Source: Ulota crispa
Taxonomy: Eukaryota > Streptophyta > Bryopsida > Orthotrichales > Orthotrichaceae
Length of the DNA stretch: 64,000 nucleotides
Direction: 5' to 3'
NCBI GenBank assembly: GCA_963920765.1
Contig: OY987243.1
Location: 15,748,001-15,812,000 of the forward strand
Positions 2,860 to 52,740 of the stretch are shown here, piece by piece. A program made the translations under genes and the position numbers. Every line of letters starts with the position of its first letter. The first letter of the stretch is position 1. A model generated the notes under the pieces. That model was not told the DNA's origin, searched no databases, and saw only the letters and a list, made by a program, of their open reading frames with translations.

Positions 2860-4731
2860 ATGTTTTGTTGCCTAGATAAAGTTTGAAATTGGAGTGCGTA
2901 GATTAAAAATAAGAATTAATTTCTTGAGGGAGAAATATTTTGCAGAGTTGGGCCTGAAATTATTTTTCACCCCGTCAAATTGACAGGTGCCTATACTAAT
3001 TAGGTAATAAAACTATTCATTCTTTTATTCACCACTTACAAGTGAAAAAGAGGCCTAATATCAACTTTCAGTAATTTTCTCAATTCTTTAATTGATCAAG
3101 CAAACAGCCACTAAGTTTATAACATAATTGTCTTAGCTATTCCAAAAATATACATTTGCCCTTTAATTTCCAATTATTTGTGAGTCATGAGCATTTTTGA
3201 GATTGTGGTATTAACTGTTTAGTGACGTGTTCTTGGTAGTCACAATTTGATTCCATTTATTTTAAATTTGCTCAAATAAGATAAATTTCATAACCAAACA
3301 CAATGAGCTGTTTAAAAATTAAAAATTACCAAATGCTATACATGCATGAGATACTTGATGATTAGCCTCCATCATCTATAAATGGTAGAAAAGTATAATA
3401 TTGAAATTGACTATTTTCTTCAATTAACTAATTTTGTACGAAATTATCATAGTTTTACAAAGAGCTTATGTTTAAATTTTAAGTTATAATTGCATTACCA
3501 TGGTACACATGTCAAGAACTATTGCTCCAATCGTACTTTTTGAATTTCAAAACTGCTTTAGAAAAGAAATGCCACAAAATATCTTATGTTGGATATCAAA
3601 CAATAAACTTTTGTGATACAATTCAAATAAATTATAACCTAATTTTGATTATAAAATTTTATTCTTCATGAATTATCAAACTTTCACATTCAAAACAATA
3701 ATATTGGTGGTAGATAACATGATTATTCACATACAAATTTGTGTGTTGTTATTTTAAGCTAGTACACCTTGATAGTATATACTAATGTACACATTTGATT
3801 GAAAGGAGTTTGTTTGAAGACTCTACCTCATTTTTTAATACAATTCATGATGAATATAGGTGATATATTGAACATGGTTGTTGCAAAAGGTGATTCTTAC
3901 TTCAGAATTCTTTTGTTGACATCTAATAACTTTAGAATCAAAAATTACACTTACAATGGTTGACAGATACCATTGGAATAGCTTAGTACTTTAGTATAAT
4001 TATGATAAGTAACTTTAAGTGCTTTCATTATAGTTTTGCAAGGTCGCTTTAGTCTTATGTTGTCTATTCAATCAAAATTAACTCCTTTATATTATTTAGT
4101 GAAAAAAAGGAATCCTTTGATGTTACAAAGAAGTTATTAGAACAAATCAGTGGAAGAGAAAACAATGTTCTATACATTTGAATGGAGGAACATATTTAGA
4201 AAATTATTATTGATGTTGAATGGCAATTAATTAAAGGAGACCTTTGATTTTAACACAACATTCTAAATACTCCTCACCAATCTTAGAAGAAAGTAGGGTT
4301 TTGTTTCTTCTATGTTTTCTTAGAAGAACATTTTATTTTATTTTTGAATTCATAAACATAATTGCTTCCATCTTAGATGAAACTCAAGATTTATTTATTT
4401 TTTTCTATTCTATTCTAGGAAGCCCTAGTTAAGTGATATTTTTGTACTAGCATAATTAAAATTTATTCAAACAAGTTTACATCTGACCTTGATTGATTGC
4501 ACTAAGTTTACTACAGCTATGTTATGAGAGGCTTTGTTTCTATAGCTGGCTTGCTTTTCAAATAAAGTACCTATTCAATTTTCCTTAAGATTGGTTCTCT
4601 TGATGCAAAGTCTTCTTAAGTGCTAGTCCACATCCAACAAAGACAACATAGCATACTTGAATGAAAAAACAATGTCTAGTTAAACATATGAAATTGCATA
4701 ACATGTTAATATGTTTAAGAAACTTGCTATA
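2860..4731. other. AT-rich intergenic sequence
   Basis: About 1.9 kb in which I see no gene, no RNA gene and no inverted repeat that I can pair. Older, decayed elements cannot be excluded by eye. Confidence 0.4.
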
Positions 4732-5045
4732 AGGTAGGAGCACCCATAAACGTCAAATTAAGGGTTTTGAACATGATGACTATCAATAAACTTCAAGAAA
4801 ATTATAAGATCCTATTAGGAACAGAAAAAAAGAAAGTTTGCAATTTCAAATGTATTAGTTGGATACTGTGCAAATTAGTTAAGAATTTTTAAAGAGCAAA
4901 TTGCCATTGTACCCATAACCACTTTTAAAAAATCATCTTCACGTGTTGTACATTCTTGTTGTTACATCTAGCCACTTCCACAAATTTTTCAAGATTTCAA
5001 AAGTGACGGTTATGGGGACACTGACGCTTATGGATGCTCCTACCT
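4732..5045. mobile_element. TA-flanked MITE, AGGTAGGAGCACCC family
   Basis: The left end AGGTAGGAGCACCCATAA pairs with the right end, which reads GGATGCTCCTACCT on the plus strand. Both ends are flanked by TA, the target duplication of Tc1/mariner-type elements. It is homologous to the outer parts of 32522-33738 and serves as the version of that element without its insertions. Confidence 0.75.
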
Positions 5046-9886: not shown

Positions 9887-10187
9887 ACTACACCGCCCAG
9901 GGTTTCTCAAAATACTCGCAAATTGAGACATTTTGTCCCCTTGGGCAGTGTACTACCCACCAGAACACAACCTAATTTCAATCAAATACTTGCAAATTGG
10001 GACATATTTCATCCCCTTGGGCGGTGTACTACCCACCAAAACACAACTTGATTTCAGCCAAATACTTGCAAATTGAGACATATTTCATCCCCTTGGGAGG
10101 TGTAGGGTTAACCCTACACCTCCCAAGAGGACGAAATATGTCTCAATTTGCAAGTATTTGGCTAAAATCAAGTTGTGTTCTGGTGGG
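9887..10187. repeat. 76-bp tandem repeat ending in a loop-less palindrome
   Basis: About three 76-bp units each contain a CCGCCCAGG/CCTTGGG word, TACTTGCAAATTG and ACTACCCACC. The last unit is followed immediately by its own inverse. The arms 10032-10109 and 10110-10187 meet at GGGTTAACCC with no spacer and match almost perfectly over 78 bp. Confidence 0.9.
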
Positions 10188-10317
10188 TAGTGCAAGGGAT
10201 CTTGAAGGTATCATATTCCTCAAGTTAAGGGTATGTTAAATCTCATGTAGATCTAAATCTCAGAGAAATCTAGGTTTGAGATGTCACATTTTATAAAGAA
10301 TATAGATTTGTATACTA

Positions 10318-12255: not shown

Positions 12256-12869
12256 TTAACCCCTAAAGGACCACAAGGGGGACAAATGGATTTTGGGCAT
12301 GTACTTACAGCTAATCAAATTTTGTGATTTTTTTGAAACTTTTATTGAAGGTATGGAATTCAAATATCTNNNNNNNNNNNNNNNNNNNNNNNNNNNNNNN
12401 NNNNNNNNNNNNNNNNNNNNNNNNNNNNNNNNNNNNNNNNNNNNNNNNNNNNNNNNNNNNNNNNNNNNNNNNNNNNNNNNNNNNNNNNNNNNNNNNNNNN
12501 NNNNNNNNNNNNNNNNNNNNNNNNNNNNNNNNNNNNNNNNNNNNNNNNNNNNNNNNNNNNNNNNNNNNNAATGATTTAAAGCTCCCCACCAATACATAAA
12601 TCTAAAGAACGTATTTCATATTTTTATTTTTTTTAAGTGCAGTTTTTAACGAAGTTTTTGGGTTGCCCAATCTTGCTTGTTTTCTAGAAATTAATTTTTA
12701 ACTTTTTCAATAAATGTCAAAATGAAGAAAAATTAGATGCCCACGTAAATTTTTGAATTTCCCATCATGTATAAAAGTTTTAAAAAATCACGCAAAGTAG
12801 TTTAGCCATAAGTACATGCCTAAAATCCCATTTGTCTCCAAAAAGGGGGCTTGGTCCTTTAGGGGTTAA
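12256..12869. mobile_element. piggyBac-like element interrupted by an assembly gap
   Basis: The left end TTAACCCCTAAAGGACC and the right end GGTCCTTTAGGGGTTAA are perfect inverted repeats. The similarity continues inward for about 100 bp: GACAAATGG.TTTT.GGCATGTACTTA on the left, and its inverse on the right. The 200-N gap lies in the middle, so the true length is unknown. Confidence 0.8.
12370..12569. other. assembly gap (200 N)
   Basis: Exactly 200 N, the same length as the second gap, so the length is a placeholder. ORFs running through it are meaningless. Confidence 0.99.
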
Positions 12870-13581: not shown

Positions 13582-14513
13582 TTAACTCCTAAAGGCCCAA
13601 ACCCTTTTTTCTATGAAAGTCATTGAAAACCGCCACTTCTAGGGGCAATGAATAGAAAAGTAGAATTAAAAAAAAAAAAATCCAACTGTAGGATCCTACC
13701 CTAGACTATGGAAGGTACTTGTAGGAAAAAAATCAACTCATTCTAGATCTAGAGGAGCAAGATATTGACATTTGAAGTGCAAAAAAAAAATCCTTGCTGC
13801 CTAGAAATTTCAGAAGCCTTTAACCTCTCCTATATCAAAAAAACTGCTCTACAAAAAGTTGAGGTTTATTTTTCCATGCAGAGGACCAAGTTAGGTAAGT
13901 GCGGAAGAATTGCCAAAAGAATTGGAGGTGTGACACATACTTTGTAAAATCTTGCAATGCCAGAAGGCCATGGAATTAGCCTATGCACTAGGAAAAATTG
14001 AAGGATTTATGTAAAATTTAGAAATTTGAATTAATTTGATCCAAGTGGTGAAAACCAAGGAATCTTAGTGTACTACAACTTGGAAAGAAAAGTAAAATAA
14101 ATAAATAAAATCACCAAATTTTAGAAGGAGCAAAAGGAATGGAGGTTTGGGAGTTCCACACCTACTTGCAAACTAAAACTTCTTAATCATTAATCAAAAT
14201 TGAATGATTCAAAGCTAAGATATATAAAAATCTAAAGAGCCAACTCCAGATTTTTAGTTTTAAAAAATGCAAATTTTAAAGAAGTTTTTTGGGGTGCCTA
14301 GATTGCTTGCCCTCCCCATTTTTCCAAAATTCATGCATAACTTCTTCAATGAGTGTTGGAATGAATGAAGAAAAAATTAGATGTGCACAAATATCTTTGA
14401 ATTCCTCAACATCCTTAAAAGTTTCAAAAAAATTGTAAAAATTGGTTTAATCATAGGTACATGCCCGTGGTTCATTTGTCTCAGGAGGGGACAGTTGGGC
14501 CTGTAGGGGTTAA
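13582..14513. mobile_element. piggyBac-like non-autonomous element
   Basis: The left end TTAACTCCTAAAGGCCCAA pairs with the right end TTGGGCCTGTAGGGGTTAA. The right half is homologous to the right half of 12256-12869: both hold a CATAGGTACATGCC-type segment followed by TTTGTCTC. Confidence 0.75.
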
Positions 14514-17649: not shown

Positions 17650-18523
17650 TCATGCCCTTGTCTGCTTCCCTATTTTTTGAATAGAACCATCAAGGTTCCT
17701 AATCACATCTAGCTTGATAAAAATACCTCTAGTTGCCACCTCAAGCGTTGAACCATTGGGATTGTGCAATACAATCTTCCCTGCATCCTCCATAGACTCC
17801 CTAGCGGTAGCCAATAAAATAGAGCACAGATTCAGCATGTCAACCTTGAAGAAATCAAGAGGAAACTCTTGCACTCTAGGTTCATACTCAACCCAAAGCG
17901 TCGTGAGTTGAGGGCAAGGAGATAGACAGTGAATGGGAATGAAGGGCAACTGAAGCATCTTGAGCCGATTAGCACAACGTAGTTGCAATTTTTGGTTGCT
18001 CTTTATACTATGACAATGGGAAAAATGGAGATACTCCAGCTCAAAAAGATCCCCCACATCGGGTGGAATTGATTCTAATCCACACTCAAACACATCAAGT
18101 ATCCTCAGCTTTTTCAGCTTGCCTATTGAGCTAGGCAAGCTCTGAAGATTGGGGCATGACCTTAATTTGAGTTCAACCAAGTTGACTAATCTGCCAATGT
18201 CCAGTGGAAGTTCCACCAAATCATCACACTTTTGAATATCCAATACACAAAGGCCTTTGAATGATCCCAACTTTTGCATGCCAAGATTTGTGAATCGTGA
18301 TTGCCAGAGCTGAAGCCACCTCAATTGCCATGAGCACTCGGATAGGCAATCACCCAACAAGGAAGGTTCAGAGTATCCAATTACAATCAAGAACCTCAGC
18401 TTGGAATAATAAGGGCAGATTTGTAAACCTTCTTGATGTACTAAACCAGCAATCAATGGCACACCTGCATCATTGCAGTCCTACATCATCCACAAAGACT
18501 AATGAGCTTATGGCATCATGAAT
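17650..18523 (-). pseudogene. HNL exon 5, leucine-rich repeats, one frameshift
   Basis: The proposed start is after TTAG at 18527-18524, reading IHDAISSLVFVDDV. One extra base at 18480-18481 (GG) shifts the frame, and the rest is open from CNDAGVPLIAGL to the TGA at the end. At least five LRR units are visible, for example LVELKLRSCPNLQSLPSSIG, LRILDVFECGLESIPPDVG and LEYLHFSHC. The length is 874 nt, one more than 291 codons, as expected for one inserted base. No N-terminal LRR exon was found between exons 4 and 5. Confidence 0.75.
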
Positions 18524-18689
18524 CTAACACTCCAAATGGCTCAATAATTATATTACTATCTTTTGGCTAGTGTAACTTAAATAATTGATGTTGAAAGCAT
18601 TTCAAAAACATATTTAAAAAATATAATAATACACAAATTTGGAAATTGAACAAATAAAATAGAGCTCAATGAAAATAAGCTAAAAGAAA

Positions 18690-18948
18690 GCAATATTTGT
18701 TAATTTGGGGAAAAAATTTTAATTTGAGACTTTTGAAATTTATGATTTTTAGTGATTTTTGGTGATTTAGAGTGAATTTTATGATGATCTCTTCACAACC
18801 TTACATCAATGATGAAATATCTTGAAGGAATTATCAAAAACTCACTTTCAATCACTAAAATATTCTCACAAATGTAAAATTTAATATCCCCAAAATATGT
18901 TTTGGGAAAGACTTTTTTCCCTAAGTAACAAATATTTTCTCAAAGACA
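18690..18948. mobile_element. MITE, CAATATTTGTTAATTTGGG family, in HNL intron 4
   Basis: The left end CAATATTTGTTAATTTGGGG pairs with the right end TTTTTTCCCTAAGTAACAAATATT. The interior is homologous to 40251-40500, including GTGAATTTTATGATG and the CTTGAAGGA word. Confidence 0.75.
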
Positions 18949-19230
18949 AAATATAAAGCAAACCATGCTTAAGAAAGATAATCCATGATAATGGCACAAC
19001 AAGGTTTAAAAATGTGGTGTGTCAGTAGTCATTACCATGGATTCTCATTCTTAAGCATGAATTCCTATCTCTTTTGTCTTTGAGCTTATTTTTGATGAGC
19101 TCTATTTAATTTGTCAAAGTTTCAAAGCCATATGTCATTTTGATTATTTGAAATTGTTTTTCAATTTGTTTCAACAAAAAAGATTGCAAGTTCTAGTTAT
19201 ACACTAGGCACAAGATAGTATTATGTTTAG

Positions 19231-19647
19231 GGGGATTGATATATGTACCACCCCTTTTTGACTATTCTATCACACTTACTCTATATGGCCAATATTTCCA
19301 ATATTAAAGTAGGTGTGGACCATGGGTAAAACATCACAAATTTATAAATGTAACTTAACATAGAAGTTGCAACGTTAATTATTATTTTCAACTCCGGATC
19401 TTGCTCATAGCATCAATTAAAAAAATCTAAATTATGCCTAGTTTAGTTTAAATTTTTGAAATTGATACTATGAATAGGATTCAGAGCTAAAAAGAAAAAT
19501 TAAAATTTCAACTTCTGTATCAAATCATATTTACAAATTAGTAATGTTTTGCCCATGGTCCACACCTACTTTAATATAATAAATATCGATCATATAAAGT
19601 AATTGTGGTAGAATAGTCAAAGAGAGGTGGTACGTATATCAATCTCC
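19231..19647. mobile_element. MULE-derived MITE in HNL intron 4
   Basis: Terminal inverted repeats of about 57 bp start GGGGATTGATATATGTACC on the left and GGAGATTGATATACGTACC on the right strand. TTATGTTTAG is present directly on both sides (19221-19230 and 19648-19657), a 9-10-bp target duplication typical of Mutator-like elements. The termini match those of the 3.7-kb MULE at 56752-60449. Confidence 0.85.
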
Positions 19648-19700
19648 TTATGTTTAGTGAATCTTTTAGAATGATAGATTGACAATGCTCTTACACTTAC

Positions 19701-20521
19701 AAACCGTTCAATAAAACCGATATGTATATTTAAGCAAGCACAAGTACGTGACACGCTCAGTAACAAGAAGAAACTGCTAAATCTGGGGGCACAAACTCCG
19801 TCAAAGAAGCGTGCAATTACCTTCATATCTAATACATTCTTCACATCGTATAATCCAGAACTCAAGTCGAGTCCGCAATCCTTTCCCATCTCCCACAAGT
19901 AGATTGGGCGCTCTTTTACCTCCTCCTTCAACAATAGATGTTGACCCATATCCCGCAACTGATCGTGCATAAAAAAAATACTTCTCTTGCCAAAACTGTG
20001 CTTTTTGAGCAGTGACTTGTTCAGCAAGTTTTGTACTCCACTCTTTGAGTTCCAAATCTGCTTGATTAAACCCTGGAATGGATACCCAACTAAGAATATG
20101 TAAGAAAAGTCTAAGAACATTGCCTTCTCAAGTGGGGCTAGGCCATCATAACTCACTCGTAAATTGCTCCAAAGCTTATCGTCAGCATTACCATCCAAGC
20201 TCTGTGCTGTGCGTAATTTTCATATGCATTTGTCCATAAACAAGTCCACTTGCAAAGATCTCCTTCATTATTTCCTTGGTATTCTGTACCAAGGTATGCA
20301 ACGTCCTGGAATCGAGCTTTTAGACTATCTTTCAAGTCCTTGTCCACGGATTTGAAAGCATGTTGATCAAACAACTGCATGTCAAAGCCTTTCTCATCCC
20401 TGATTCCATTTACAATAACAATACTTGCCTTGCCCAACTTGTCAAACTTTGGCAATATTCCTTTGTCTCGACCAGTCACTATCAGTTTGCATTGGCTCCC
20501 AGACTCCAATGCACAAAACAC
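19701..20521 (-). pseudogene. HNL exon 4, second half of NB-ARC, one frameshift, GLPL missing
   Basis: It starts after TTGCAG with VFCALESGSQCKLIVTGRDKG (RNBS-B region), then LFDQHAFKS. The stretch that should carry GLPLAL reads FQDVAYLGTEYQGNNEGDL and contains no such motif in any frame. One base is missing near 20217-20220 (an A run), after which the frame continues KLRTAQSLDGN, LWSNLRVSYDGL, KAMFLDFSYIF and FMHDQLRDMG (MHD motif). The donor proposed is TTT|GTAAGT at 19700-19695. It gives 821 nt, one short of 274 codons, matching one lost base. The open frame beyond it runs into a transposon. Confidence 0.7.
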
Positions 20522-20898
20522 CTGCAACCATGGTTGTTAATTTGGGTAAGATTTAGTTGTTGGACATCACACACAGACGCATGAAATAGATAGCATTGAT
20601 ATATGTGTTTGTCCCCTTGTATTTTTTAGGGAATTTTTAGGATTTTTGACCTAAAATAAGAAAAATCAAATTATTATTTTTCATGCTTATTGCTTGATAT
20701 GGCTTTAAATTCATTTTTTGACTTCATGTTGGCAACAATAAGATCACCAACATGTACAAACTAAGTTTTTTTTTGTCATTTTTTATCATTTATAAAAATC
20801 AACTATGAATTTACTACATTGGATAGACCATGACTAGCTCAATCAGACACTCTGGACATACAAGCAAGCAGATAAGTGGTCCAATATAACAAACATGC

Positions 20899-21456
20899 TT
20901 GCAACGCTTGAAGGCACTCTTGAGAAGACACATCGTCAATCACAACTAACACTTTTTTTGTTGTAAAACACTCCTTGAGCTTGTCAAGGTGATGCGACTC
21001 CACACGTTCTCTTTCATTGAGTTTCTCCGCACAAAGCTTTTGGAGTAGTTCCTTTTGCACATCTTCAACTTTTTTTGCTTTGACTTCCTCTACATAGCAA
21101 GACTTTGCATAGTCACGAGCCTTGAGGTTGTAAACTATCTTGCTCAATATCGTCTTTCCAATGCCTCCCATTCCAAACAAGCCAATGACAGCAACTTGAC
21201 TACTTTCTAGCCTCTCGCACACGTCAGTGATCATGTTGTCTATACCAATAGGCACCACATGAAGATGCACCGTGGCAGAACTAGAATGTTCTTGAATCAC
21301 CTGACTGATGCAACTAGTCAACTTCAAGTAATTGACGTCCTCAGCATTTTGCGGTTTGCACACAGTCTTGTGATCGGCATGATTCAACACTAAAAATTCA
21401 CTTGGACTTGGAAATTGTGCAAAATTTTGTCGTACAACCCACCTAGACATCCCCAC
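20899..21456 (-). CDS. HNL exon 3, hydrolase C-terminus and first half of NB-ARC
   Basis: 186 uninterrupted codons. The first part completes the hydrolase: FLVLNHADHKTV probably supplies the catalytic His. The NB-ARC follows with VIGLFGMGGIGKT (P-loop) and KKVLVVIDDV (Walker B/kinase 2). The acceptor chosen is CCAG at 21460-21457, because it keeps phase 0. A second AG 14 bp inside a small duplication is the alternative. The exon seems to end at CAA|GCATGT, which would be a GC donor. Without splicing there, the frame runs 20 codons into a stop at 20839. Confidence 0.75.
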
Positions 21457-21504
21457 CTGGACATCCCCATTCTCCAAGGCATGAGAAAGAAGAAGCGTGC
21501 CTCA

Positions 21505-25264: not shown

Positions 25265-26448
25265 AACGCGTTATTCGTTAATTTGGGAAAAATGAGGGGT
25301 CCCATTTTGTACTCACATGAATCTGAGACTGTCACCGTAATTTATGTGTAATCATATTCTTTAAATTCAAGAGGCCTCCTGAAACCTGCTTAACCCCTAA
25401 AGGATCAGACCCCCTTTTTAAAAACATAGCGATTTTGGGCAAGTACCTTTGATTGGAACATTTCATATTTTATGCTAAAAATTTAATAGAATGTGGGGAC
25501 AAGATTTATCTTTCATATGCACTAAATTTCATGACATTTGGAATTATTAGTAAAATGTTATGGCCTAATATGTTGTTTTTTACGTTTGTTGGGCAGCCTA
25601 GGCAAATTTTTAAAAATCGCTTTTTTCAAATTTTTTAAAAATTGGTTTAGGAGATTTGTGTGAATGTAAGAAGCTTTGAATAATTCTACTTGGATCAACG
25701 AGATGAAAGTAATGAGGATTTTTTGTTTGCAGGTAGTTATGGATTCTCTACTCCAAACTAAACTTTGAAGTCCATTCGTTTACTCAAATTTCAACATTTG
25801 GAACAAAAAACAAAACCAAATGATGAATATTGTTTATGACAATATTATGACCATTGGGATTGGCATTTTTCATTTCCATAATTAAATTCTTAACAATTTA
25901 ATGGTTTGAATCATTCTCTACTTCTTTTTACTTACTAATTCTTTTCCATATGTTATACAACTCCAAATGATTTGAAACTTTTTTGATATGTACTTTACAT
26001 AGGTGGAATAAGGAATTTAGAGAAGCACCGCCCACATGGCCTTTTTTCACAAGACGTTTTTGAATACTCAAACCATTCTAACTTCCAATCCACGTGGCAG
26101 AAATCTCTGAATTTTTTTCCACATCTTCTCAAACCATTCTTTTGCAAGATCCTACGGTCACATATGCATAAAAATGTTTTTGTTTTCAAATTTGGTTGAC
26201 GCTCTATAAATGGCAGTTTTGAAGAGTTTTTGGTGAAAAATTTGCTTGGTCATTTAGGGGTTAATGAACTTTTTGTCCAAATTTTCAAATGTTAACAAAT
26301 TTTTTGTCAAAAAAGAACATCTTTTTAGAAGATATATATCTCATTTCATTAGAAAATAGTCAACAGATTCCCAAACATGGCGTTCAATTCCAAAAAAACC
26401 AAAGGTCCCCTTTTGTAAGCATTTTCCCAAATTAACGAATAACGCGTT
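25265..26448. mobile_element. MITE, AACGCG(T)TATTTGTTAATTTGGG family, with nested piggyBac-like element
   Basis: Its ends are AACGCGTTATTCGTTAATTT and the exact inverse at 26421-26448. TTGA flanks both sides (25261-25264, 26449-26452), a 4-bp target duplication. The element is split by the insertion at 25390-26264; without it, it would be about 310 bp. Confidence 0.85.
25390..26264. mobile_element. piggyBac-like non-autonomous element, copy B
   Basis: The ends are TTAACCCCTAAAGGATCAGA and its near-inverse CTTGGTCATTTAGGGGTTAA. It is homologous throughout to copy A at 610-1520 and is inserted in the MITE above at a TTAA. Confidence 0.8.
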
Positions 26449-27196
26449 TTGAGTACTTATTCTAACGCTTCCCAAGAAAATAGTTAGTGCGTTTTGTGTA
26501 CCATTAATAGACTTTCGATTTAAACAAGAAGTACAGTAATTTAGCAAAGGGGTAGACTGACAACGCTTTGAGCACTCCGCTGAAAAATATAGAATTATTC
26601 AGACACGTCCATGAGATGTGGTTCTGTATAAAAGAAACTTGCCGAGGTTCAATGAGTTATGATTTAAAGGAAAATCTCCGCATAAAATGGCACCATCTAT
26701 GCAAGTGCGTGGGGCTTCTAGCAACGCTATCAACTGTGCAATAAAGTACAGGAGTCCTCAAAGAATCATGAGGCCTACCCAGATACGATTCACACGAGAC
26801 AAAAATAGAAAACAAATGGGGAAACTGTAACACATAACACACCTTATTAGGTAAATTGGGAAAAACAGAGGGGTCATTTTGTTTTCCACCTTAATTTCAC
26901 ATCAATCAACGTACGCATATCTATTACTCAAAAGTTGTAATTTTTGAAGTTCTTGGAGGCAATCATTGAGATTTTACTATGGTACAAGAAAATGCATACT
27001 TGTTTTGTATATCTAGTGAACCATCGAACAAAGAAACTTACTGTAAATACCATTGACAGTTCTTAAAGTTGAAAAGTACAGCACGAGTGATATTCTTCTT
27101 AACAACTCAAACCGATTTGGAAAATCAGATTTTGGACAAGAACTGCTCTTTTCTGGTCCATTGTTCCTGCAAACAAATTGGTAGTAGGATGATGTG
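26449..27196. other. intergenic with a partial MITE end
   Basis: At about 26850-26900 the sequence TAAATTGGGAAAAACAGAGGGG resembles the inner terminus of the AACGCG MITE family, without a visible partner. No gene was seen. Confidence 0.4.
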
Positions 27197-27209
27197 GACG
27201 CGTTATTTG

Positions 27210-28162
27210 TTAACCCCTAAATGCCCAAGGCACCCAATTTGGGTGTCCAAAAAATTTCAAGAAACTTTGAAACCCTGTTGAAGGTACGGATTTTATCATT
27301 TTCAGGTTCCTTTTTTTGGAAAGTTGCTTGCTCAAGTTAGCTCCACCGTTCAAATTCAACTTCCTTCATATCTTTTTCCAATTTTTTTGGTGGAAGGTTA
27401 ACTACAAGCATACATTTTGTGTCATGAATAGTGTCGTGAATAGTGTCATGAATAGTGTCATGAATGGTGTCGTGAATAGTGTCATGAATAGTGTCATGAA
27501 TGGTGTCATAGAACCTATGAGAAGTTGCCACATTGAAAAGGCGGGCATCAAGTTGAGCAAAAGGTGAAGATTTCCCTTGGGCAATAAGGGCCTTTTTACT
27601 AAAATTTTGACATTTAGCAAAATCTAAAAGTGCTTTTGGACTAATTTCACTTGGAATGTCTTTGTTATTAAAATTGGAATCTATTCACCGTTGAAAATCT
27701 TTCATTTGTATTGATTTTTGGTCAATAATTGAAGCTGAAATTTTATTTGTATTAGACGGTTGCGTTCTGACAGTTGCGTTGCAGGCTCATTTGTGAAATT
27801 GTGGTCATGGATTTGGAAGGGGGGCCATTGATTTTGAAGTAACAACAATAAACACTAAAGCAATCTAAGTGGTTGTTTTCCAAATTTGTATCTAGAAGTT
27901 GCCAATTTGCATTAGAAGTTTCGGGTAGCTCCAGAAAAAGCAAAAAATTCTATACTCATCATCATTCAATTGCAAATATCTTAAAATCCGCATGGCCATT
28001 TTGGATTCTTGTTGGAGAGTGCTATCTAGAAGTCTTGAAGTTCAAGATTCAACCGTTACAATTTTATTTTGATGTTTAATAATGATCTTACAAGGACAAA
28101 TCAAAAACTTCAAAACTGCCTTCCAAAAACAAGAAAAACACCCTTGGGCATTTAGGGGTTAA
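27210..28162. mobile_element. piggyBac-like non-autonomous element at a provable TTAA site
   Basis: The ends TTAACCCCTAAATGCCCAAGG and CCTTGGGCATTTAGGGGTTAA are perfect inverses of about 20 bp. The element splits the conserved host phrase ATTTG-TTAA-(A/T)TTGGGAAAAA, which is intact with one TTAA at 25274 and 32698. TTAA is therefore duplicated target, not element sequence. It is homologous to 29241-30157. Confidence 0.9.
27419..27510. repeat. 12-bp minisatellite (GTGTCATGAATA)
   Basis: About 7.7 units with C/T and A/G variants at fixed positions. The homologous element at 29241-30157 has only about one unit here (near 29471), so the array grew after the copies separated. Confidence 0.9.
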
Positions 28163-29240
28163 ATTGGGAAAAATGGAGGAATCATTTTGTACTCCACCTT
28201 AAATCCAAAAAGTCACCTTAAACCATATTCAAAGGTATCAAATTCAATCTGAGCCACTAAGATTTTTTCCCTTTCAAATTCCTCTTCTCAGGTGAGGGCA
28301 CGTGTACCAAAAAAAGCGTTGTGAGCCATTAGAAAAAATATGAGCTCTCTAGAAGGCCGCTAAGAACCCCTCTCAAGGGGTCTCCTTAATTGTTTTAATT
28401 TGTACTTTGGAGTAATAAAAATTCCTTACACCCTATTATGTCTTTGACTACAATCATGGCTCACATTGACATGTCCAATTTTCATTGGGCGCCACAATTA
28501 CATGTACATATAACCATGGTTCTTTTTTTCAATATTAAAATCTTTAACTTAGTACTTGTGAGGGTGACAGTAGTTATGATTGTGTACAATAGTAGAAGAA
28601 TAACTAAAAAATTATGACATAGTACTAAATTGCCATTTTCTATTCATAATTTTTTTGATGTACAATAGAAAAGTCATACAAGATAGAGACACTTCACACA
28701 CGCTTTTAATGTACGCGGCCTAGGCTCAATAAATGTTAAAAGTGTCAACTCTTAAGAGCCTTGTGAAGAGTTCATATTTTCTCTAATGCTCAATTTCAGG
28801 TGGTCACCTAAAACCTTCAAAAATTCCAAAATGTACTGTTTTCCCCAATACCGCATTTGTGATGAAAAAATGGTGGCACTGGATTCCATCCTCCTTTGCA
28901 AAAGGAGACTTCATTGTTGACAATTCAACCTCTGCCGACCACAGACCGATATCCCGGAGGGATTGTGAGTGGGGAAGATTGTCGTCCTGACGTACTAATT
29001 TTTTTTATGTTGTGGAGCCAGCTTTCACGAATTTAATGAAAGAATTGCGCCTCGACATTAGTTTGCTGACCACTTCCTGTTGATGTTCTCCGACAAACTA
29101 ATCTCAAAGGAGTCTCGTGCAGGGACTCGGTCACAGAACGCGCACTCTGTGCAGTGCAACAGCGTTTTGCTCAGCTCGGATCAGCTTGGCTCCGTGATGT
29201 TCATAAACCAAGGTATTTACGCAAAGTGATGAAGCATTTT

Positions 29241-30157
29241 TTAACCCCTAAATGCCCAAGCCACCAAATTTTGGTTTTCAAAAAACTTCCATGAACGTTG
29301 AAACCTTGTCGTAGGTAAATATTTTATTCATTTAAAGTTTTTTTCTGAAGAAGTCGTGGGTTGAAGTGAGCTTCAACGTTCAATTATAATATTCTCCATA
29401 CCTTATTTCAATTGTTTTTGGTGGAAGTTACATTGCAAGCATATCTCTTGCACACCATATAGTTTGATGAATAGTGTCATATTGTCATTGCAAAGCCTAT
29501 GACAAGTTGCCATATTGAAAAAATGGGCATCAAGTTGAGAATGAAGTGAAAACCTTGGGCACTCCCATGGGTAGTGAGGACCCTTTTGTTGAAAAAAATT
29601 CTTTTAACAAAATCCTAATATGTACTTGCACTAATTTCACTTGGAATGTATTTGTTATACAAATGAAATTCATTCACCATTGAATTCTCTTTCATTCATG
29701 ATGGTTTTTGGTCAATAATTGGAGTTGAAATTTTTCTTTGTATTAGGTGGTAGCTCTTTGACAATTACACTGCAAGTTCATTTTTGAAACTACGGTCATT
29801 AATTTGGAAGGGGAGTCATTAGTTTTGAAGTAACAACAACAAGCATTAAATGGTTGTAAGTGGTTCTTTCCCACTTTGTAAACAATAGTTGTCATTTTTG
29901 CATTTGAAGTTTTGGGTGGCTAAAAAAAAACCAAAAAATTCCATACTTAGTCACATTCAATTACAAATATCCTAAAATCCACAAGGCCTTGTTTGAGGTT
30001 TTTTTGGTTAGTATCTCTATCTAGAAGCTTTGAAGTTCAAGATCTTAAGGTTACAATTTTGTTGGGATGTTTAATAATAATCTTACAATGACAATTCAAA
30101 AACTTCAAAATTGCCTTCCAAAAACAAGAAAAACACCCCTAGGCATTGAGGGGTTAA
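29241..30157. mobile_element. piggyBac-like non-autonomous element
   Basis: The ends are TTAACCCCTAAATGCCCAAG and CCTAGGCATTGAGGGGTTAA. It is homologous along its length to 27210-28162, including the ending AAAACTTCAAAATTGCCTTCC. Confidence 0.85.
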
Positions 30158-30297
30158 ATCGTTAAAGGAAAGTCAAGAAATGTCAATTTGCGTCAAAGGG
30201 TTCGTTCCCACGCAATTCATCTTTTGCCATTACAAAATACACAACACCAATGAAATTGCATCTTGCACTTTTGACCTTTGATCCGTCCAATAATCAC

Positions 30298-30602
30298 TAC
30301 ACTAAATATTGCATTATGGTGCCCTACACTATTTTCTTGGCATTTTACCCTATTAAAACTTTACTTGATACTACAATAATTTTCAGCAACAATTACTGAT
30401 TTTTTTAATTTTTAAAGGCCTAACAACAACAAATAAAGTTGTGGAGAAGCAAACTAGCAGCATCTATGTCATAAATCATGTGAAGTCCTAATATTTAAAA
30501 AGTTGCATGTGTCTCTAAGTGGCCAAGGGATGAGTCACAAGGTAACTTCTCATGGTCAGGCAACTTGATTGTTAAGACAACCTAAATGCACTATTTAGTG
30601 TA
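30298..30602. mobile_element. MITE, TACACTAAATATTG family
   Basis: It starts TACACTAAATATTGCATTA and ends TGCACTATTTAGTGTA, with GGTGCCC / GACAACC inside. It also shares the CTAACAACAACAAA word with 5903-6427 and the GTTGTTGTTAGGCC word with 40032-40580. Confidence 0.75.
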
Positions 30603-31128
30603 ATGTTCACAAATGTGGCTAAATTTAAAAAAAAACACGTCATTTCAATTATTTCTTTTTACATTAATAATACAAATGCATCCTAATTCAAAAAATATGT
30701 GGACTTGCAAAGCACACTAATAAAAAATTCTACAACAATTTAAATCAAATCAACATATTTTGGGCTACAACATTTAAATACTATTTCAAATAATACAAAT
30801 CAAGTGGCCATAATCCCAAGATGATTGTGCAAGCAAGTAGCTCCACTAGAGACCTTGTGGAAGATTTTGCATTATGAAGGATCCACCACCAAGTATAGTA
30901 ATTTCTATAGGTACAACAAAAGGTTGGAATCGATATCCTACTTGGAGACACGTGCTTGGAGATGAAAGATAGGAGGCATACCACATTTTCATACTAATTA
31001 GATATAATTATCCAAATTTGTATGATGGAATCTTACACTATTTCCAAATCTTGCACTAGTTAGAATAACTTGTGTGGCACCAAATCATATTTGTTAAGTA
31101 TACACATATGTGAATATCATAGTATTAG
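30603..31128. other. intergenic, no feature seen
   Basis: AT-rich. A minus ORF at 30781-30984 is not protein-like. Confidence 0.4.
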
Positions 31129-31437
31129 GGGAAAATTTGATAGATACTTTTGGAGTTTCCAATACTTGTTTAGGTACCCTTGATTTTTTAGAAATTGCAC
31201 AAATACTCTTGGATCATAAATTTTCAATTTAATTTGTTGTGCTTGACACTTTGTTCATGACCACTATTATAACAAAGAATGTTATAGAATAGATAAGAAG
31301 CAATGTGCGCACAAAAGGACAAGGAAGTGGCATGTACAACAAAGTAACTTCTTGAAAACTATGATCTAAGGGTATTTGTGCAATTTGTGAAAAACCAAGG
31401 GTAATGCAACCTTTAGAGATATCCATCAAAATTTCTC
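31129..31437. mobile_element. MITE, GGGAAAATTTCATGGATACC family, copy 2
   Basis: The left arm GGGAAAATTTGATAGATAC and AAATTGCACAAATACTCTTG are read back on the right as GGGTATTTGTGCAATTT and ATCCATCAAAATTTCTC. It is the most diverged of the five copies. Confidence 0.75.
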
Positions 31438-31872
31438 TAGTACTCCCTTTGTCCCTCAAAAAATCTCCAAAAAGCTTCGATGTGAGGGATTAACTATGTT
31501 TTTAGTCTTTGTGCTAGTGACACATGCATTCAATAATCAATAACTTATATACCATTATACCAAGTGTACGCAAAATCTCCAGCTTTGACAACAATGTTTG
31601 GGCACCCAAATTCCATCCAAAAAGTACCATATTTGTGACATAGGTTGTAAATGTTGCTAGCTCCTCATTGTTTATGATTTAAAGATTATTGGTAACAATG
31701 GTACCTTATATGGGCAAGGCACTACAAAGAATCAAAAACTGTTCAAATTGACACAACTTGATTGACTAAACATGTTTGAATTCACAAGAAAATGTCCTAA
31801 TTTATAAAAAAAAGACCAAATTGACAATGTTCCCTTGTGGCACCAAGCTTATTAGGAGAGCTCCTTCATTGC
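31438..31872. other. intergenic with a Stowaway-like end
   Basis: TACTCCCTTTGTCCCTCAAA at 31440 resembles the terminus of plant Stowaway elements, but I find no matching opposite end. Nothing else was seen. Confidence 0.35.
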
Positions 31873-32522
31873 TTAACCCCTCAATGCCCAAGGGGCTGAA
31901 ATTCCGCCCCTTTGAATTTTGTTCAAGGATTCCCCAAAGTTTTTTCCAAATTTTTTTGTGGTTATTATTATATCTAAATTATTGTTGAAGTCTAGTTTCA
32001 GCATCAAGAGTCTGATCTTGAAAATGAATTAACATGATTTGTCTATTCAAGATTTTGTGCAAGGGTGTCCATTGCAAATCTTCACTTTCTAGTGTTGAAG
32101 GCTCTTGGAAACAAGCCTCAAGTATGCTAGAACTTAGAGAAAAATTGCATTAAAAATTCATTTAAAAAAATTGTAGAATAGATTTTGAGAAGCTGGAAAT
32201 TGATTGGGGTTATGCATGTTATACTTTACATACTCATATTTTTTGGTACCCTCAATTTTAGGTTTGAGATGCAAAAAGAGGATTGAAAGACTTCAAATCA
32301 CTTTCAGAGTTTTATCCCCCTCATGATTAAACATTATAATCTTTCAATCCATAAGTGAAATAGTTGTGATTTCTTTTTGTATGCAATCTATAACATGTCT
32401 ACTCTGAATTTGTACAATTACATTTCAAAAAAATTGATAAGATTGATCAAAATGCCAGCATTTTGTTCACTTTCAAGCAAATTCTGAGATACTCCAAAAT
32501 TCTAGGGGCGTTGAGGGGTTAA
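31873..32522. mobile_element. piggyBac-like non-autonomous element
   Basis: The ends are TTAACCCCTCAATGCCCAAG and GGGGCGTTGAGGGGTTAA. It is homologous in inverse orientation to 9205-9850. Its right TTAA overlaps the TA that flanks the next element, so the two are directly abutted. Confidence 0.8.
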
Positions 32523-32660
32523 GGTAGGAGCACCCATAAGCGTCAATCTAAGGGTTTTGAACTTGATGAGTATTAATAAACAACTAGCAAATTATAGAAT
32601 CCTATTAGGAATAGAAAAATATTGAGTTTGCACTTCTGTATGTATTATTTTGATATTGTG

Positions 32661-33555
32661 CTTGGGGAGATCACTAGCCTATGTTTTAGAACGCGATATT
32701 TGTTAATTTGGGAAAAACAAGGGTCCCACTTTGTTTTCCCCTCAAATCCAAAAGTTACTTTAAAGCCAAATTCAAAGGTATTAGATTCAATCTGAGCCAC
32801 TAAGATCTTTTCCCTCACAAATCCCTCCTCTCAGATGAAGGCACGTGTTGGTTTGAGGTGATCACCTCAAACTTCTTGACTTACTTCTTGAAAGTCCCAA
32901 AATGTACCATTTTTCCCAAATTAACCAATATTGTGTTTTAGGAACCATTTGAGTTAAAAGATAGGGTCCATTTTATTCAAAGGATATATATTTTTTAATA
33001 TGTAGACATACTATAGGGTTCATGAAATACTATGTATTTTATTATATATAAATTAGGATATGTAAAAACATTAGGTAGTAGGATTTTTTTATTAATAAAT
33101 TAGCCTTAACAAATAGGGGTTGTAAAAAAAATTAGTGTTGTTTGCTACCTTCCATGTTAAATTGTTTTAAATATATGCCATAGAATTGAGAAATACTAAG
33201 AACTTGTTATTAAAAAATTTCACTTAGACTATAGCCCTCTAAATCATATGTTTGTTATTGGTTTTAGGGTGAATACTATGTGTGTATATGTAATAGAAAG
33301 TAAGATTTTTTTTTGATGAATAGTGGAGATAGGATAAAATTGGACAAATCAAATTTATACATAAAAAAGCCCCATTTAAAAACCAAATAAATGAATTTAT
33401 AAAAAAAATATAGGGTACTAGAAACATGATCCGCGTAGCTTTTTATATAAAAATATGGTCATTTTAATTACCATATTTTAGATAAATAGCCCTACATCAA
33501 ATACCCTCTTAACTCATGTGTATACCATAAAATTATATGGAGTGATCTCCCCAAG
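32661..33555. mobile_element. hAT-like element (8-bp target duplication), middle level of nest
   Basis: A perfect 14-bp terminal inverted repeat, CTTGGGGAGATCAC, has ATATTGTG on both sides (32653-32660 and 33556-33563). An 8-bp duplication is the hallmark of hAT transposons. No transposase is visible; the interior is very AT-rich. The related unoccupied site is at about 4863-4872. Confidence 0.8.
32690..32937. mobile_element. MITE, AACGCG family, inner level of nest
   Basis: It starts AACGCGATATTTGTTAATTT and ends with the inverse AATTAACCAATATTGTGTT. TTAG lies on both sides (32686-32689, 32938-32941). It is an uninterrupted 248-bp copy that shows the empty TTAA site used by the element at 27210. 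Confidence 0.85.
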
Positions 33556-33966
33556 ATATTGTGAGAATAAGTTGTGAATTTTTAAAGAGTTGATTGCCAT
33601 TGCACCCATAACCAACACCAAGGTGTCATGTTCACATGTTTTACATCCTTGTGATTACATCTATTCATTTCCATAGATTTTCCAAGATTTCAAAGGTGAT
33701 GGTTATGGGGACACTAACGCTTATGGGTGCTCCTACCTTAACCCTTAAACGTCAAGGAGCATAGTAGATATGTTACCGTATATCTAGCATTTGCTACCAA
33801 CAATTTTTTTTAACTTGGGATCTCAAATAGCACACTAGAACCGCGTTTATCTATATTCCAACTTCTTTGTTGATCTCAAATGTAGTAGAGGCGTGTATCC
33901 ATTCCAAATACAAGAAAAATACCATGTATTGTGTTGGTCACAAAGGGCCTTTCTTATGTTTAAGGA

Positions 33967-34730
33967 TTAACCCCTAAACACCCTCAAGGACCAAAAGTAT
34001 CCTTGCATGATTTCAAAAGCTTGTTTGAGGCATTAAATCTAATTTTTTTATCTTGCTATAAATTACAATTATGAAGGCATTCAAGTTGTCCATGCCAATA
34101 GAGTCTAATGGCAAGGAAAGCCAAATGTTGCACAAGTGTTGCAAGAGGATTGATTGGGTGAAACACCATATGAGGTGTGGTGGCAAGGAGTATTGTACAA
34201 GCTGCAACTTGTCAATATTTTGTGCAAGATTCATTGTGTGTGCTTTGTGGTAGCAAGAAATTTGTTTGCAAGGGTTCAAGCATGTTCTAAATCCTTATTA
34301 TGGCAACCCTCACCAATTGTGCCACTCATTGTTTTCCGTACAATAGCAATTTGAAGCCCTAAAACTTGACATGAAAAGAAGTGCAATCTTCAATAATTTG
34401 CAAATGTGTTCATTCACATCTAATCTTGCTATCCAAAAAAATTGAGATGAATCAAGGGCTTATAGAATTTTGTAAAAATCATCAAATAGCAACTACCTAC
34501 CAAAAAATGAGATTTTGCTATCACATGTTGTTGGATCAAATGTTATAATCTCCCATCTCCCACAATCAATTGTTCCCAAAATTTGCAAGGCGTTTTCTAA
34601 GTAGGTATTCCACTATTCTCAATGGTCACTTTTTGAGGATCATCCAATTGACTAAGATACAATTTATCAAAGTTGTAGGTCTCCCAAAACCCTGATTTTG
34701 GTGAAAGTGACATGGGCCCTTAGGGGTTAA
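33967..34730. mobile_element. piggyBac-like non-autonomous element
   Basis: The ends are TTAACCCCTAAACACCCTCA and GGGCCCTTAGGGGTTAA. It is homologous in the same orientation to 51918-52740, e.g. GTTGCAAGAGGATTGATTGGG against GTCGCAAGAGTTTTAATTGGG. The small ORFs on both strands are incidental. Confidence 0.8.
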
Positions 34731-37988: not shown

Positions 37989-40900
37989 ATGGCGAAACTG
38001 TATTTCGAAAATTGCTCAGGACGTGACAAGGCATCAGCAGAAGCTGAGGTGGACGACACCATCTGGAAGCATCTTCCGCAGGAGCTTGTGGAGAAGTGTT
38101 TGGGTTATCTTCCAGTTCTAACGATTGCATCGAAGCTCAGGGCAGTGAACAAAACATGGAATTCTTTTCCTGGCACTCCACAATTCATGCCCTTGCACAA
38201 CCACAGGAAGAACATCGACTCCTGCTTCGGGTTTTTAATGCACGGCACGAACATACTGACGCACCGGTGCGAGACTATGGCTTTAAATCACAACACTCTG
38301 AAATGGCAGCAAGCTCCATCTCTCCAGCTGGAAGGTAAGACTATAATTACTTAAACACCAAGTTGGGCAATTTTTTTCATATTAAGACTGAGATAACGTT
38401 TTTCTGGAGAGGTGTAGATTTAAGGGGGCAGTTCACATTAGTTCGTACCTCGTATCAAGTCCCTCTGAAATTTCAGAATCTTGTTGGCATTTCACTATAT
38501 GTCGCAAGTTCCACGTATTGGTTCACTTAGAAATGCTTACCATATTAGCACTTTTTAGAAGTCTTGGCATCAAGATGGAGGGACTTTGCTTGAGATTTGC
38601 GTTGAGCAAAAACAGAAAACCCAACTTCAAAACCAAGTCCTACCTAGTTTAAAAAAGAGCTCTTTCTTTAGTATTTCATTTTGCGTATATAAGTTTAGGA
38701 GCACCCAATACCAACGTTGTACTTAATGGCTTCACTCCCTACAAAGGATGTTCATTCTAGAACTTAAATCTAGGTATTTCATAAACAGCTTATCATTTTG
38801 GTCAATAGCAATAGGCTATCTATGAAGTACCTAGGTTTAAGTTCTAGAATGACTACGATGTGCAGAGAGTGACGCCATGAGGTACATTGTTGCTGCTGTT
38901 GGGTGCTCCTACCTTAACCCAACAACAAAGATGGGATCTTGGATGGAGGTGGGACCGTACATGGAGGTGGGACCTTTAGAGACATAGTGTATTAGAGCCT
39001 ATTTCCATTTGGGGGGCTAGAGGGGTCCATACCAAGCCTAGACCTCTAGCCTTCAACTCTGCAAAAGTTGAATAAACATTCCTGGACCTTCCGGACCCTA
39101 GATTGGAGCTTGGTTTCAAAACTGTATGGCTCGTAGAGATTTCAGAGTTTTTTTCTTTTCTCTGCCCATGGGCCTCCAGTTCCGGTTACCAATGGAAACT
39201 GGCCCTAAACCGCCCATAAGTATGGAACTACGATTGTTGTCATTTTCAACTGAAATTTGCCAATGTAATGGAATCTCTCTCTCTCTCTCTCTCAGGTCCC
39301 CACAGAACTTGCCACGTGGAGTCGGTCTCCGAAGGAATACTGTGCATCAGCCCACATCCAGGCACTTCACCACCCTTCATAGTCTGGAACCCGCTTCTCC
39401 CGGCAACCTGCAAACGGACAATCCCTCGGATAATCTCTCAGGATGAGTACTGGAGCGTGAACTTGGTGGTGGACAAAGCAAACGTGAGCTTCAAAGTGCT
39501 TGCATTCACTGCTCACTTCAGGGAATGCCATAGCTTCTCATCAACCACAGGCACTTGGCATTCTCACCACGAGGGACCTGATGTTCCCAACGGTACTTTG
39601 TTCTTTCCAACACACAGAAATGGCGGTCACGTTGCAGTGGCGTACCAGAATTGCCTCTACGTTGCGGTGGGACGTCTGATCAACGACGTTCATCAAGTCG
39701 GAAGTTTATGCTACGACGTGAAAAGGAATGCTTGGAAATCTTCGTTGTTGGACATGGCGGACATGTTCACTTTGTCACCGGAGCTCGTGACGCTTTATGG
39801 TTATTGGTTCACCCGGGCACTGTTCGTTGCAGCGGACGTAATGTACAAGGTGGTGGAATACGTGAGCGGGGGTCACCTCGTTGGAGATGCTCGTCTTTGC
39901 CCTACAGTGCAGATCTTGGCCAGAATCGTCGCTGCTGGTAACCTTGCAGGTAACTTAAAAAATTTCTGAGCCACGGTCCTCGTCCATTTGCTTTTCTATT
40001 GCCTCAGTCCGTATTTTTCTCGTTTATCATGTACACTAAATAGTGCATCTAGGTTGCCTTACCGTAGACAGTTAGTGACTTATGGTTTGGCCACTTGGAG
40101 GCCCATGCAACTCTCTTAGATACTAGAATTTCACATGGTTTATGACATGGACATTACTAGTTTTTTTTTTTTGCAATTTTGTTGTTGTTGTTAGGCCCTT
40201 CAAAAATTGTTTGTTGCAATAATTATTGCTGAAAATTACTGTAGTTAAAGCAATATTTGTTAATTTGGGAAAAAAACGGATTTTAGGACTTCTGAATTTT
40301 TCATTTATAAGACTTCTTTGGTGATTTAAAGTGAATTTTATGATGGTTTCTTCAAGACCTTACATTAATGATGAAACGTCTTGAAGGACTTATAAAAAAC
40401 TCACTTTATATCACCAAAATACTCTCATATACTGTATACAAAATTTAGTATCCCCAAAATCAGTTTTGGGAAAGGCTGTTTCCCAAGTTAACAAATATTG
40501 TGATAGTTTCAGTAAGTATGTAAATAGTGTAAAATTTCAAGAAAAAATTGTAGGGCAACCTAAACGTAATATTCAGTGTAGAGCAGTCTTACATTTATAA
40601 ATCAGTTCTAAGAGTTTTGTGAAGAGTGTGACCATGACGTGGACTTGGTGAATTGTGAGTGCAGGGAAGTGGACGGTGATTGCCACCACGGTGCTCCCTG
40701 AACGCGACTGGGAAACCAAAGGCTTCGGAGGGTGGTACATGAGCTGCAGAGAACAAGCTGGCCAGGAGGAGGAGAAGCCCACGCTGTGCGCCATGTTCAA
40801 GGTGGACCCATCCTTGTTTCTGCTCAAGTTCAGCGTCAGCAGCGGCGTCTGGACGACGATGTGCGTCACCGACGTGGAGGCATGCACTGGGCTGCAGGAC

Positions 40901-47970: not shown

Positions 47971-48020
<50 letters not shown>
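47971..48020. repeat. (AT)25 microsatellite
   Basis: A pure AT dinucleotide run. The MULE-type MITE starts directly after it. Confidence 0.95.
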
Positions 48021-48024
<4 letters not shown>

Positions 48025-48396
48025 CTAATATGTGTACCACATCCTTTGAACTATTGTACCACACCCTAGGGTAAATTTTAGATTTCGACCATCAAAAAGC
48101 TAAATTTGAGAATTTTGAATTCAGATTTGGACTAAGAGACCATAATTTAGTTTAGAACCATAAAAAAAGTTGCACTTCAACAACACCCAATGAAAAAGTT
48201 TAGCTAAGGAGAAAAGTGTTACTTTTACTTTTGTTTGTAAAAAAAAGACAAGCTTTTTCATTAAGTGTTGTGGAATTGCAACCTTTTTTTATGGTTCTAA
48301 ACCAAATCATGGTCTCTAAGTCCAAATTTGAATTCAAAATTCTCAAATTTAGCTTTTTGATGGTAGAAATATACAATTTACCTTGGGGTGTGGTGT
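48021..48396. mobile_element. MULE-type inverted-repeat MITE, right end lost in gap
   Basis: The beginning GTGTACCACATCCTTTGAACT plus TACCACACCC resembles the MULE termini at 60449 (inverse). Long arms pair from about 48054 to 48396: CATCAAAAAGCTAAATTTGAG is mirrored by CTCAAATTTAGCTTTTTGATG. The right arm runs into the N gap at GGTGTGGTGT. Confidence 0.75.
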
Positions 48397-49122: not shown

Positions 49123-49200
49123 TTAACCCTTAAATGCCCAAATCTCCAAATTTTGTTGATTTTTTACTAGAATTTGATGCCTTGGACATTTAGGGGTTAA
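49123..49200. mobile_element. minimal (78-bp) piggyBac-like element
   Basis: TTAACCCTTAAATGCCCAA at the left and TTGGACATTTAGGGGTTAA (preceded by GCC) at the right, only about 40 bp apart. It is the shortest member of the family and shows that the termini alone have been mobilised, or that the rest was deleted. Confidence 0.8.
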
Positions 49201-51917: not shown

Positions 51918-52740
51918 TTAACCCCTGAACGCCCCAGAGGACCAAAATGGTCCTCAGTCCTCACAAGATTTCACATGCTTGGTTGATGTATTGTATCTAA
52001 TATTTTGACTTTGCTATAAACTACAATTATCAAGGTATTCAAGTGGTCCATGCAAGTGGAGTAATGGTCAAGCAAGTCAAATGTTTTACAAGTGTCGCAA
52101 GAGTTTTAATTGGGAGAAACATCATATAGGGAGTGGTGGAAAGCAACACAAGCTACAACTAATCAATACTCACTGCAAGCTTCCTTACATGTGCTTCGTG
52201 GTAGCAGAAAAATCACCAATAAGGGTTCAAGTATGTTCTAAACCCTTGTTGGGACAACCCTCACCAATTGTGCTGGTCATTGTTTTTTGTGCAATATAGT
52301 AGTACCTGGCTAAGAAGAACCTGTGTAAGAAAATTTCTTGGATAAGATCACATTCTTTAACATGGAAGTAACCCAGCAGGTTCAGTATTGGGGAGCTACA
52401 AGGGGTATTTGGCTATAATGAATACTCTCTTAAAATGAAATAAATATTCTATCCAAATACCTTCATCTTAGCCAGGCAGTACTGTAGCAAATTGAAACCC
52501 TAAAACTTTTTGTACAAAGAAGAAAAAATCTTCAATAATTTGCAAACGTGTGCATTCACATTTAATCTTGGTACTCAAAATTTCTGAGATGAATCAGGAG
52601 TTTATAGAATTTTATAAGCCCAAAATTTGCAAACCGTTTTCTGGTGTTCCAATGGTCAATTTTTGTGGATCATCCGATTGACTGATAAATTTCCCAAAAA
52701 CCTGATTTTGGTGAAAATGGCCTGGACACTCAGGGGTTAA
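51918..52740. mobile_element. piggyBac-like non-autonomous element with nested insertion
   Basis: The ends are TTAACCCCTGAACGCCCCAG and GGACACTCAGGGGTTAA. It is homologous to 33967-34730 except for an added segment at 52311-52482. Confidence 0.85.
52311..52482. mobile_element. small inverted-repeat element nested in the previous one
   Basis: It is absent from the homologous position near 34343 in the related element. The ends AGTACCTGGCTAAGA and TCTTAGCCAGGCAGTACT are imperfect inverses; the size is about 170 bp. Confidence 0.75.

Follow-up and report, generated by a model that had tools for sequence, protein, structure and literature searches.

TTAA-flanked miniature elements of the moss Ulota crispa and their relation to piggyBac-type transposase genes

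Short elements of the window and their TTAA target sites

A stretch of 64,000 bp from Ulota crispa (assembly GCA_963920765.1, contig OY987243.1; C2:15748001-15812000, hereafter the window, in a genome of 274.8 Mb in 157 contigs) carries a set of short repeats with the termini CCCCTAAA...TTTAGGGG flanked by TTAA. The initial annotation assigned them to piggyBac, a group of jumping genes familiar from animals and having C-rich ends that begin with CCC. Termini that adjoin TTAA and face each other were paired into elements. By this rule the window holds nine two-ended elements, eight of 614-953 bp and one of 78 bp, which sum to 6,606 bp, or about 10% of its length. The initial count was at least eleven elements; besides the nine with both ends, we found single ends at 1520, 9850 (with TTAG), and 11800. 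The elements are listed below by window position, with no strand assigned; clades A and B are those of the transposases considered in the next section.

12256-12869, TTAA element of 614 bp; CCCCTAAAGGACC termini, 70% identity to 13582-14513 over 319 bp
13582-14513, non-autonomous piggyBac element of clade B, 932 bp; homology to clade B transposase 3' ends
25390-26264, TTAA element of 875 bp lying inside the host repeat 25265-26448; recognized by its termini, right end resembling clade B
27210-28162, non-autonomous piggyBac element (miniature inverted-repeat transposable element, MITE) of clade A, 953 bp including both TTAA; in a TTAA of the host repeat's terminal repeat, 21-bp perfect inverted ends (TTAA included)
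29241-30157, non-autonomous piggyBac element of clade A, 917 bp; TTAACCCC termini, ends like those of the 5,746-bp element described below
31873-32522, non-autonomous TTAA element of 650 bp, kin to a C1 family of ~650 bp; TTAACCCCTCAATGCC / TTAACCCCTCAACGCC termini
33967-34730, TTAA element of 764 bp; recognized by its termini, 75% identity over 386 bp to 51918-52740
49123-49200, TTAA mini-element of 78 bp; TTAACCCTTAAATGCCC and TTAACCCCTAAATGTCC termini at a distance of 78 bp
51918-52740, TTAA element of 823 bp; CCCCTGAACGCCC and CCCCTGAGTGTCC termini, homology to 33967-34730

The terminal motifs are strongly overrepresented in the window, with 15 matches to CCCCTAAA against 2.1 expected and 18 matches to TTAACCCCT against 0.52 expected, numbers reached in none of 100 shuffles in either case, and most of these termini form head-to-head pairs. 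When CCCCTAAATGCCCAAG was sought with up to three mismatches and TTAA was not required, 17 sites were found, preceded by TTAA in 14 cases, by TTAG in one, and by AAAT or AAAG in two. An additional terminus, TTAACCCTTAAACG, lies at 33738, near the element 33967-34730. No stop-to-stop frame of at least 120 amino acids is present within 25265-32937, the part of the window where the elements were first noticed. A short tandem repeat with a GTGTCATGAATA-like unit occupies 27425-27510, within the element 27210-28162.

The insertion of this last element reads ACGCGTTATTTG-TTAA-element-TTAA-ATTGGGAAAAA and lies in a terminal repeat of another repeat, the host, which has further copies in the window. 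A single uninterrupted TTAA is found in seven of the nine other host-repeat ends (18687, 25265, 26448, 32690, 32937, 40247, and 40504), and the two remaining ends are altered (TTAC at 18941 and GTAA at 26838); a tenth match, at 14346 with seven mismatches, was excluded as a non-member of the host family. TTAA is followed by A at 27210 and by T in the majority of empty copies. The empty sites compared here are paralogous copies and not alleles. Besides the copy split by 27210-28162, four two-ended copies of the host repeat are present in the window:

18687-18941, host repeat copy; 4-bp target duplication AAAG
25265-26448, host-type repeat with an empty TTAA intact in each terminal repeat; 28-bp perfect inverted ends, target duplication TTGA
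32690-32937, second host-type repeat with a single TTAA per end; target duplication TTAG
40247-40504, host repeat copy; 4-bp target duplication AGTT

Since each host copy has a 4-bp target duplication of its own, the phrase around TTAA belongs to the host repeat and not to the insert, and the repeat that holds 27210-28162 is a separate kind of repeat and not a piggyBac copy. The inverted ends of the host repeat, about 27 bp long, read AACGCG(T/A)TATT.GTTAATTTGGGAAAA, and its target duplications differ between copies.

The terminus is common far outside the window. The genome-wide search that had been proposed as a check found 6367 occurrences of TTAACCCCTAAATG and one of the reversed control pattern, and of 2520 exact occurrences of CCCCTAAATGCCCAAGG, 2118 have TTAA directly before them. 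Copies without TTAA, which in large number had been named as a possible ground for rejecting the assignment, are the minority among these exact termini. Together with the paralogous empty sites, these termini bear out the initial view that 27210-28162 splits a phrase kept whole in related copies, and that TTAA is the duplicated target. The terminal inverted repeats are C-rich and short, as in piggyBac: they are perfect over 21 bp (TTAA included) at 27210-28162, and the 5,746-bp element has TTAACCCCTAAATGCCTAA at each end.

As a sample of the genome we fetched 20 stretches with two convergent ends, all of them near the start of C1. Thirteen elements in this sample measure 637-656 bp and five measure 877-933 bp, other sizes being 241, 386, and 1503 bp; copies inside each size group share about 71-92% identity. 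Compared with 12 of the C1 elements of 637-656 bp, the window element 31873-32522 shows 73-78% identity over 479-578 bp. One 647-bp C1 element has an extra terminus before it, 1551 bp from its end. In three stretches (L012, L017, and L019) TTAA elements abut with one TTAA in common (for instance, GGGG-TTAA-CCCCTAAA), an arrangement expected if newcomers insert in the TTAA that flanks older copies.

Transposase genes and the elements that carry them

When the genome was searched for the piggyBac-type transposase family PF13843 (DDE_Tnp_1_7), 116 of 528 first-look candidates were scored and 120 match rows obtained, some genes being spread over two rows, with a best E of 1.3e-73; no match to this family was found in 14 control genomes. 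At least one stop codon interrupts 110 of the 120 rows, and ten have none. Judging by impression, TGA and TAG stops seem commoner than TAA among these matches. We examined 34 transposase loci, made up of the 30 best together with four chosen for their open frames. The three catalytic aspartates characteristic of piggyBac are D in 31, 26, and 28 of the 34 aligned sequences, and among the 16 letters that replace them elsewhere, 13 are N, with one gap in addition.

Termini were read 1.5 to 3.9 kb downstream of each transposase, and an inward-facing TTAACC[CT] was found at 25 of the 34 loci, compared with an outward-facing one at nine. Two loci, L029 and L038, are 90% identical up to TTAA (within a base) and share no identity beyond it; L029 reads as an element of 5,027 bp bounded by TTAACCCCTCATCGCC and TTAACCCTTCATTGCC.

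The second delimited full-length element, C5:10867266-10873011 on the minus strand (5,746 bp), supplies the element with a DDE_Tnp_1_7 transposase that had been sought. It has TTAACCCCTAAATGCC at both ends and encodes a piggyBac-type transposase broken by stops, and in-frame stops are likewise present in the 5,027-bp element. The two main open reading frame (ORF) pieces of the 5,746-bp element have PF13843 as their sole Pfam match at E 0.1, with E of 2.6e-59 and 3.7e-7, and all three catalytic D are kept. The larger piece also matches the solved structures of piggyBat (1.7e-16) and of entry 6x67 (3e-13), which we take to be the enzyme of T. ni. A Cys-rich stretch is visible by eye in the C-terminal piece.

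This element is related to window elements at both ends. It aligns with 27210-28162 at 81% identity over the first 86 bp of each, and at 85% identity between its own last 554 bp and the final 552 bp of that window element; for 29241-30157 the identity is 72% over the first 113 bp and 79% over the last 553 bp. A piggyBac-type transposase thus lies inside an element with termini of the window type. A second clade A copy, L042 on C4, is 77-78% identical to the 5,746-bp element in the coding and 3' parts and has the end TCAACCCCTAAATGCCC. Similarly, the 3' end of the clade B loci L058, L045, and L054, up to TTAA, shows 71-73% identity to 13582-14513 over the first 504-529 bp of the latter, and the 3' ends of the clade B loci L031, L045, and L054 show 81% identity to 25390-26264 over its last 54-58 bp. 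The transposase link was made for three window elements, 27210-28162, 29241-30157, and 13582-14513; because one link leads to clade A and the other to clade B, at least two window families go back to different transposase clades. The first two of these elements are short and non-coding and share their ends with an element of autonomous type, as expected of MITEs, and 13582-14513 does so at one end.

Three further copies with 57-78% protein identity to the 5,746-bp element served as a test set, their flanks being fetched after the link had been made (only one member of a duplicate pair on C2 entered the count, and the partial copy at C8:16134811, with 64% identity, was left out). The 3' ends of all three are homologous to the end of the 5,746-bp element; one has TTAACCCCTAAATGCCC and another TTAACCCCTACATGCCC, so that two of three show an intact TTAA and the motif with zero or one mismatch. 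Two 5' ends were fetched, of which one bears CTAACCCCTAAATGCCC and the other is homologous from position 18.

The loci were also sorted by eye into five terminus types, with 18 of the 34 labelled and 16 left unlabelled. Placed on a maximum-likelihood tree built from the DDE regions, these labels require four changes, the minimum for five labels, whereas shuffled labels require 11.2 on average and in none of 200 shuffles as few as four. Terminus type follows transposase clade among the 18 labelled loci.

Origin of the small elements

TTAA flanks, paralogous empty sites, termini common with transposase-bearing elements, and the agreement of terminus with clade, as shown above, are the basis of the piggyBac assignment. 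The CCCCTAAA...TTTAGGGG elements are almost certainly MITEs of the piggyBac superfamily, derived by internal deletion from transposase-encoding elements of 5-6 kb, and the 5,746-bp element upholds the identity first proposed from the window. In the mechanism that we envisage, internal deletion of elements encoding a piggyBac-type DDD transposase would have produced the small elements. Going by how the family is known to move, the transposase would bind the ends and cut the element out, which would then be inserted in a TTAA with duplication of the four bases; the small elements may have been mobilized in trans by the enzymes of their full-length relatives. On a broader scale, the chances seem about even that this land-plant genome houses an old and diverse piggyBac radiation, with several deep clades, a terminus type proper to each, and thousands of TTAA MITEs.

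Several observations weigh against the piggyBac assignment of the small elements. Of the 2520 exact termini, 402 lack a full TTAA, probably through decay. No inward TTAACC[CT] was seen within the stretch read downstream at nine of the 34 loci (L035, L037, L039, L040, L041, L042, L044, L055, and L057), and L042 shows TCAA where TTAA is expected. The upstream side is weaker, with eight inward and seven outward TTAACC[CT] at the 17 loci read for more than 1.5 kb. In the test set, one of the three 3' ends is decayed and one of the two 5' ends lacks the motif. Terminus label E falls in two places on the tree and not in one clade, and the sorting by eye was done after part of the transposase sequence was known, so the test copies, which were fetched later, weigh more. 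Finally, the Cys-rich zinc domain of piggyBac has no Pfam match at E 0.1.

Kolobok and Sola3 also prefer TTAA, so that TTAA by itself is not unique to piggyBac, and the small elements could in principle belong to one of these superfamilies, the piggyBac genes being present in the genome by coincidence. Sola is reported from a moss in a plant-transposon guide (PMC10741241). However, the 3' ends are mutually homologous in all five clade A copies with the 3' side read, the 5,746-bp copy matches a window element at both ends, and clade B transposases bear one end of the window element 13582-14513. No autonomous relative of another superfamily turned up, although no search was aimed at Kolobok or Sola transposases. 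We regard a coincidence of this kind as highly improbable.

Even less credit is due to elements of Tc1/mariner type with a TA duplication, termini ACCCC...GGGGT, and a mere preference for TTAA: TTAA-CCCC and T-TA-ACCCC are indistinguishable at a single site, but this model predicts freely varying outer T and A, whereas all four letters are kept in 2118 of the 2520 exact termini, and the linked transposase is DDE_Tnp_1_7 and has no other Pfam match at E 0.1, contrary to Tc1/mariner. Equally hard to credit is a chance nest in which an unrelated piggyBac gene came to lie between the ends of two small elements, for although such elements are dense in the genome, some of them abutting, and a repeat of about 400 bp sits inside the 5,746-bp element at 4315-4734, no further TTAACC[CT] terminus occurs on either side between the DDE match and the end of the element, its left end and its right end each match the corresponding end of a single window element, and the 3' ends are homologous in transposase copies on C2, C4 (two), and C9. 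On this evidence all three alternatives were set aside in favor of piggyBac MITEs.

In two element groups, C-to-T change amounts to 0.38 and 0.23 in CG, 0.23 and 0.19 in CHG, and 0.11 and 0.07 in CHH contexts, the CG and CHG values of the 650-bp group being based on two and seven sites only. The raised change in CG and CHG suggests methylation of these copies in the past, and their divergence suggests that most examined copies are old. The loss of catalytic aspartates to asparagine, taken together with C-to-T change in CG and CHG, looks like decay following methylation.

Known systems and neighboring features

The elements resemble piggyBac of Trichoplusia ni and piggyBat in the TTAA target, the C-rich termini, and a DDD transposase of the DDE_Tnp_1_7 family. 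The full-length elements of 5.0 and 5.7 kb differ in size from piggyBac itself, given as 2.4 kb (PMC2874221), and from bee piggyBac elements, for which a range of 2.23-3.52 kb is stated (PMC10140906). Moreover, unlike piggyBac, the small elements here retain subterminal stretches as long as about 86 and 554 bp, and most transposase copies contain stops. The small elements are also similar to Stowaway and Tourist, which are short, high-copy, non-coding, bounded by terminal inverted repeats, and derived from larger DNA transposons; these, however, are assigned to Tc1/mariner (TA) and PIF/Harbinger (TAA/TTA) in the classification cited (PMC10004981), whereas the elements described here belong to piggyBac and TTAA.

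The initial remark on how little piggyBac has been described in land plants holds in spirit, yet the superfamily is already listed for plants. It appears among angiosperm MITE superfamilies (PMC10004981), as a minor line of 1230 copies and 122 kb in the repeat table of the fern Ceratopteris (PMC6890710), and in a grass as one hit of 75 bp (PMC8319324), and it is named for plants in general terms in four further papers (PMC10140906, PMC2874221, PMC10794571, PMC10813416). The angiosperm and fern entries share the name, but as list or table lines they come without a linked transposase, termini, or empty sites. In a 2023 plant-transposon guide, nine DNA superfamilies are given, seven of them with inverted ends, and piggyBac is not included (PMC10741241). 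A literature search on piggyBac that covered bryophytes, lycophytes, Marchantia, and wider sets showed, among the titles listed, none that describes piggyBac elements in a non-seed plant. The kind of element is already known, and what is notable is the scale and the diversity of clades in a land plant. Annotation that follows the nine-superfamily list would leave such repeats unclassified. If the old radiation considered above is real, piggyBac, documented from transposase to MITE, would join the DNA transposon superfamilies established for plants. A native plant lineage with many MITEs would offer a way to ask how plant silencing handles a superfamily known chiefly from animals, and it also raises the question of descent or transfer.

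Other features of the window include a long near-perfect palindrome at 10010-10205 with the center GGTTAACC (10108-10111) and CCCTACACCTCCCAAG on either side, adjoined by degenerate repeats of its sequence from about 9886; it is possibly a pair of abutting TTAA elements or a foldback. The repeat of about 400 bp mentioned above lies in the window at 48007-48392, where it matches itself on both strands (an inverted-repeat structure), and recurs not only in the 5,746-bp element but also in L042 and in the 1503-bp TTAA element (L016). A run of N is located at about 48.3-48.6 kb, and the window has 400 N in total. A scan of the window against Rfam gave no match at gathering scores. Among its frames are matches to the NB-ARC, HSP70, and LRR families, including LRR of the plant resistance type, and an F-box match falls slightly below its cut-off, a set of genes in keeping with a land plant. 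A resistance-type gene with NB-ARC and LRR, broken and lying in separate frames, occupies 17650-21501 on the minus strand.

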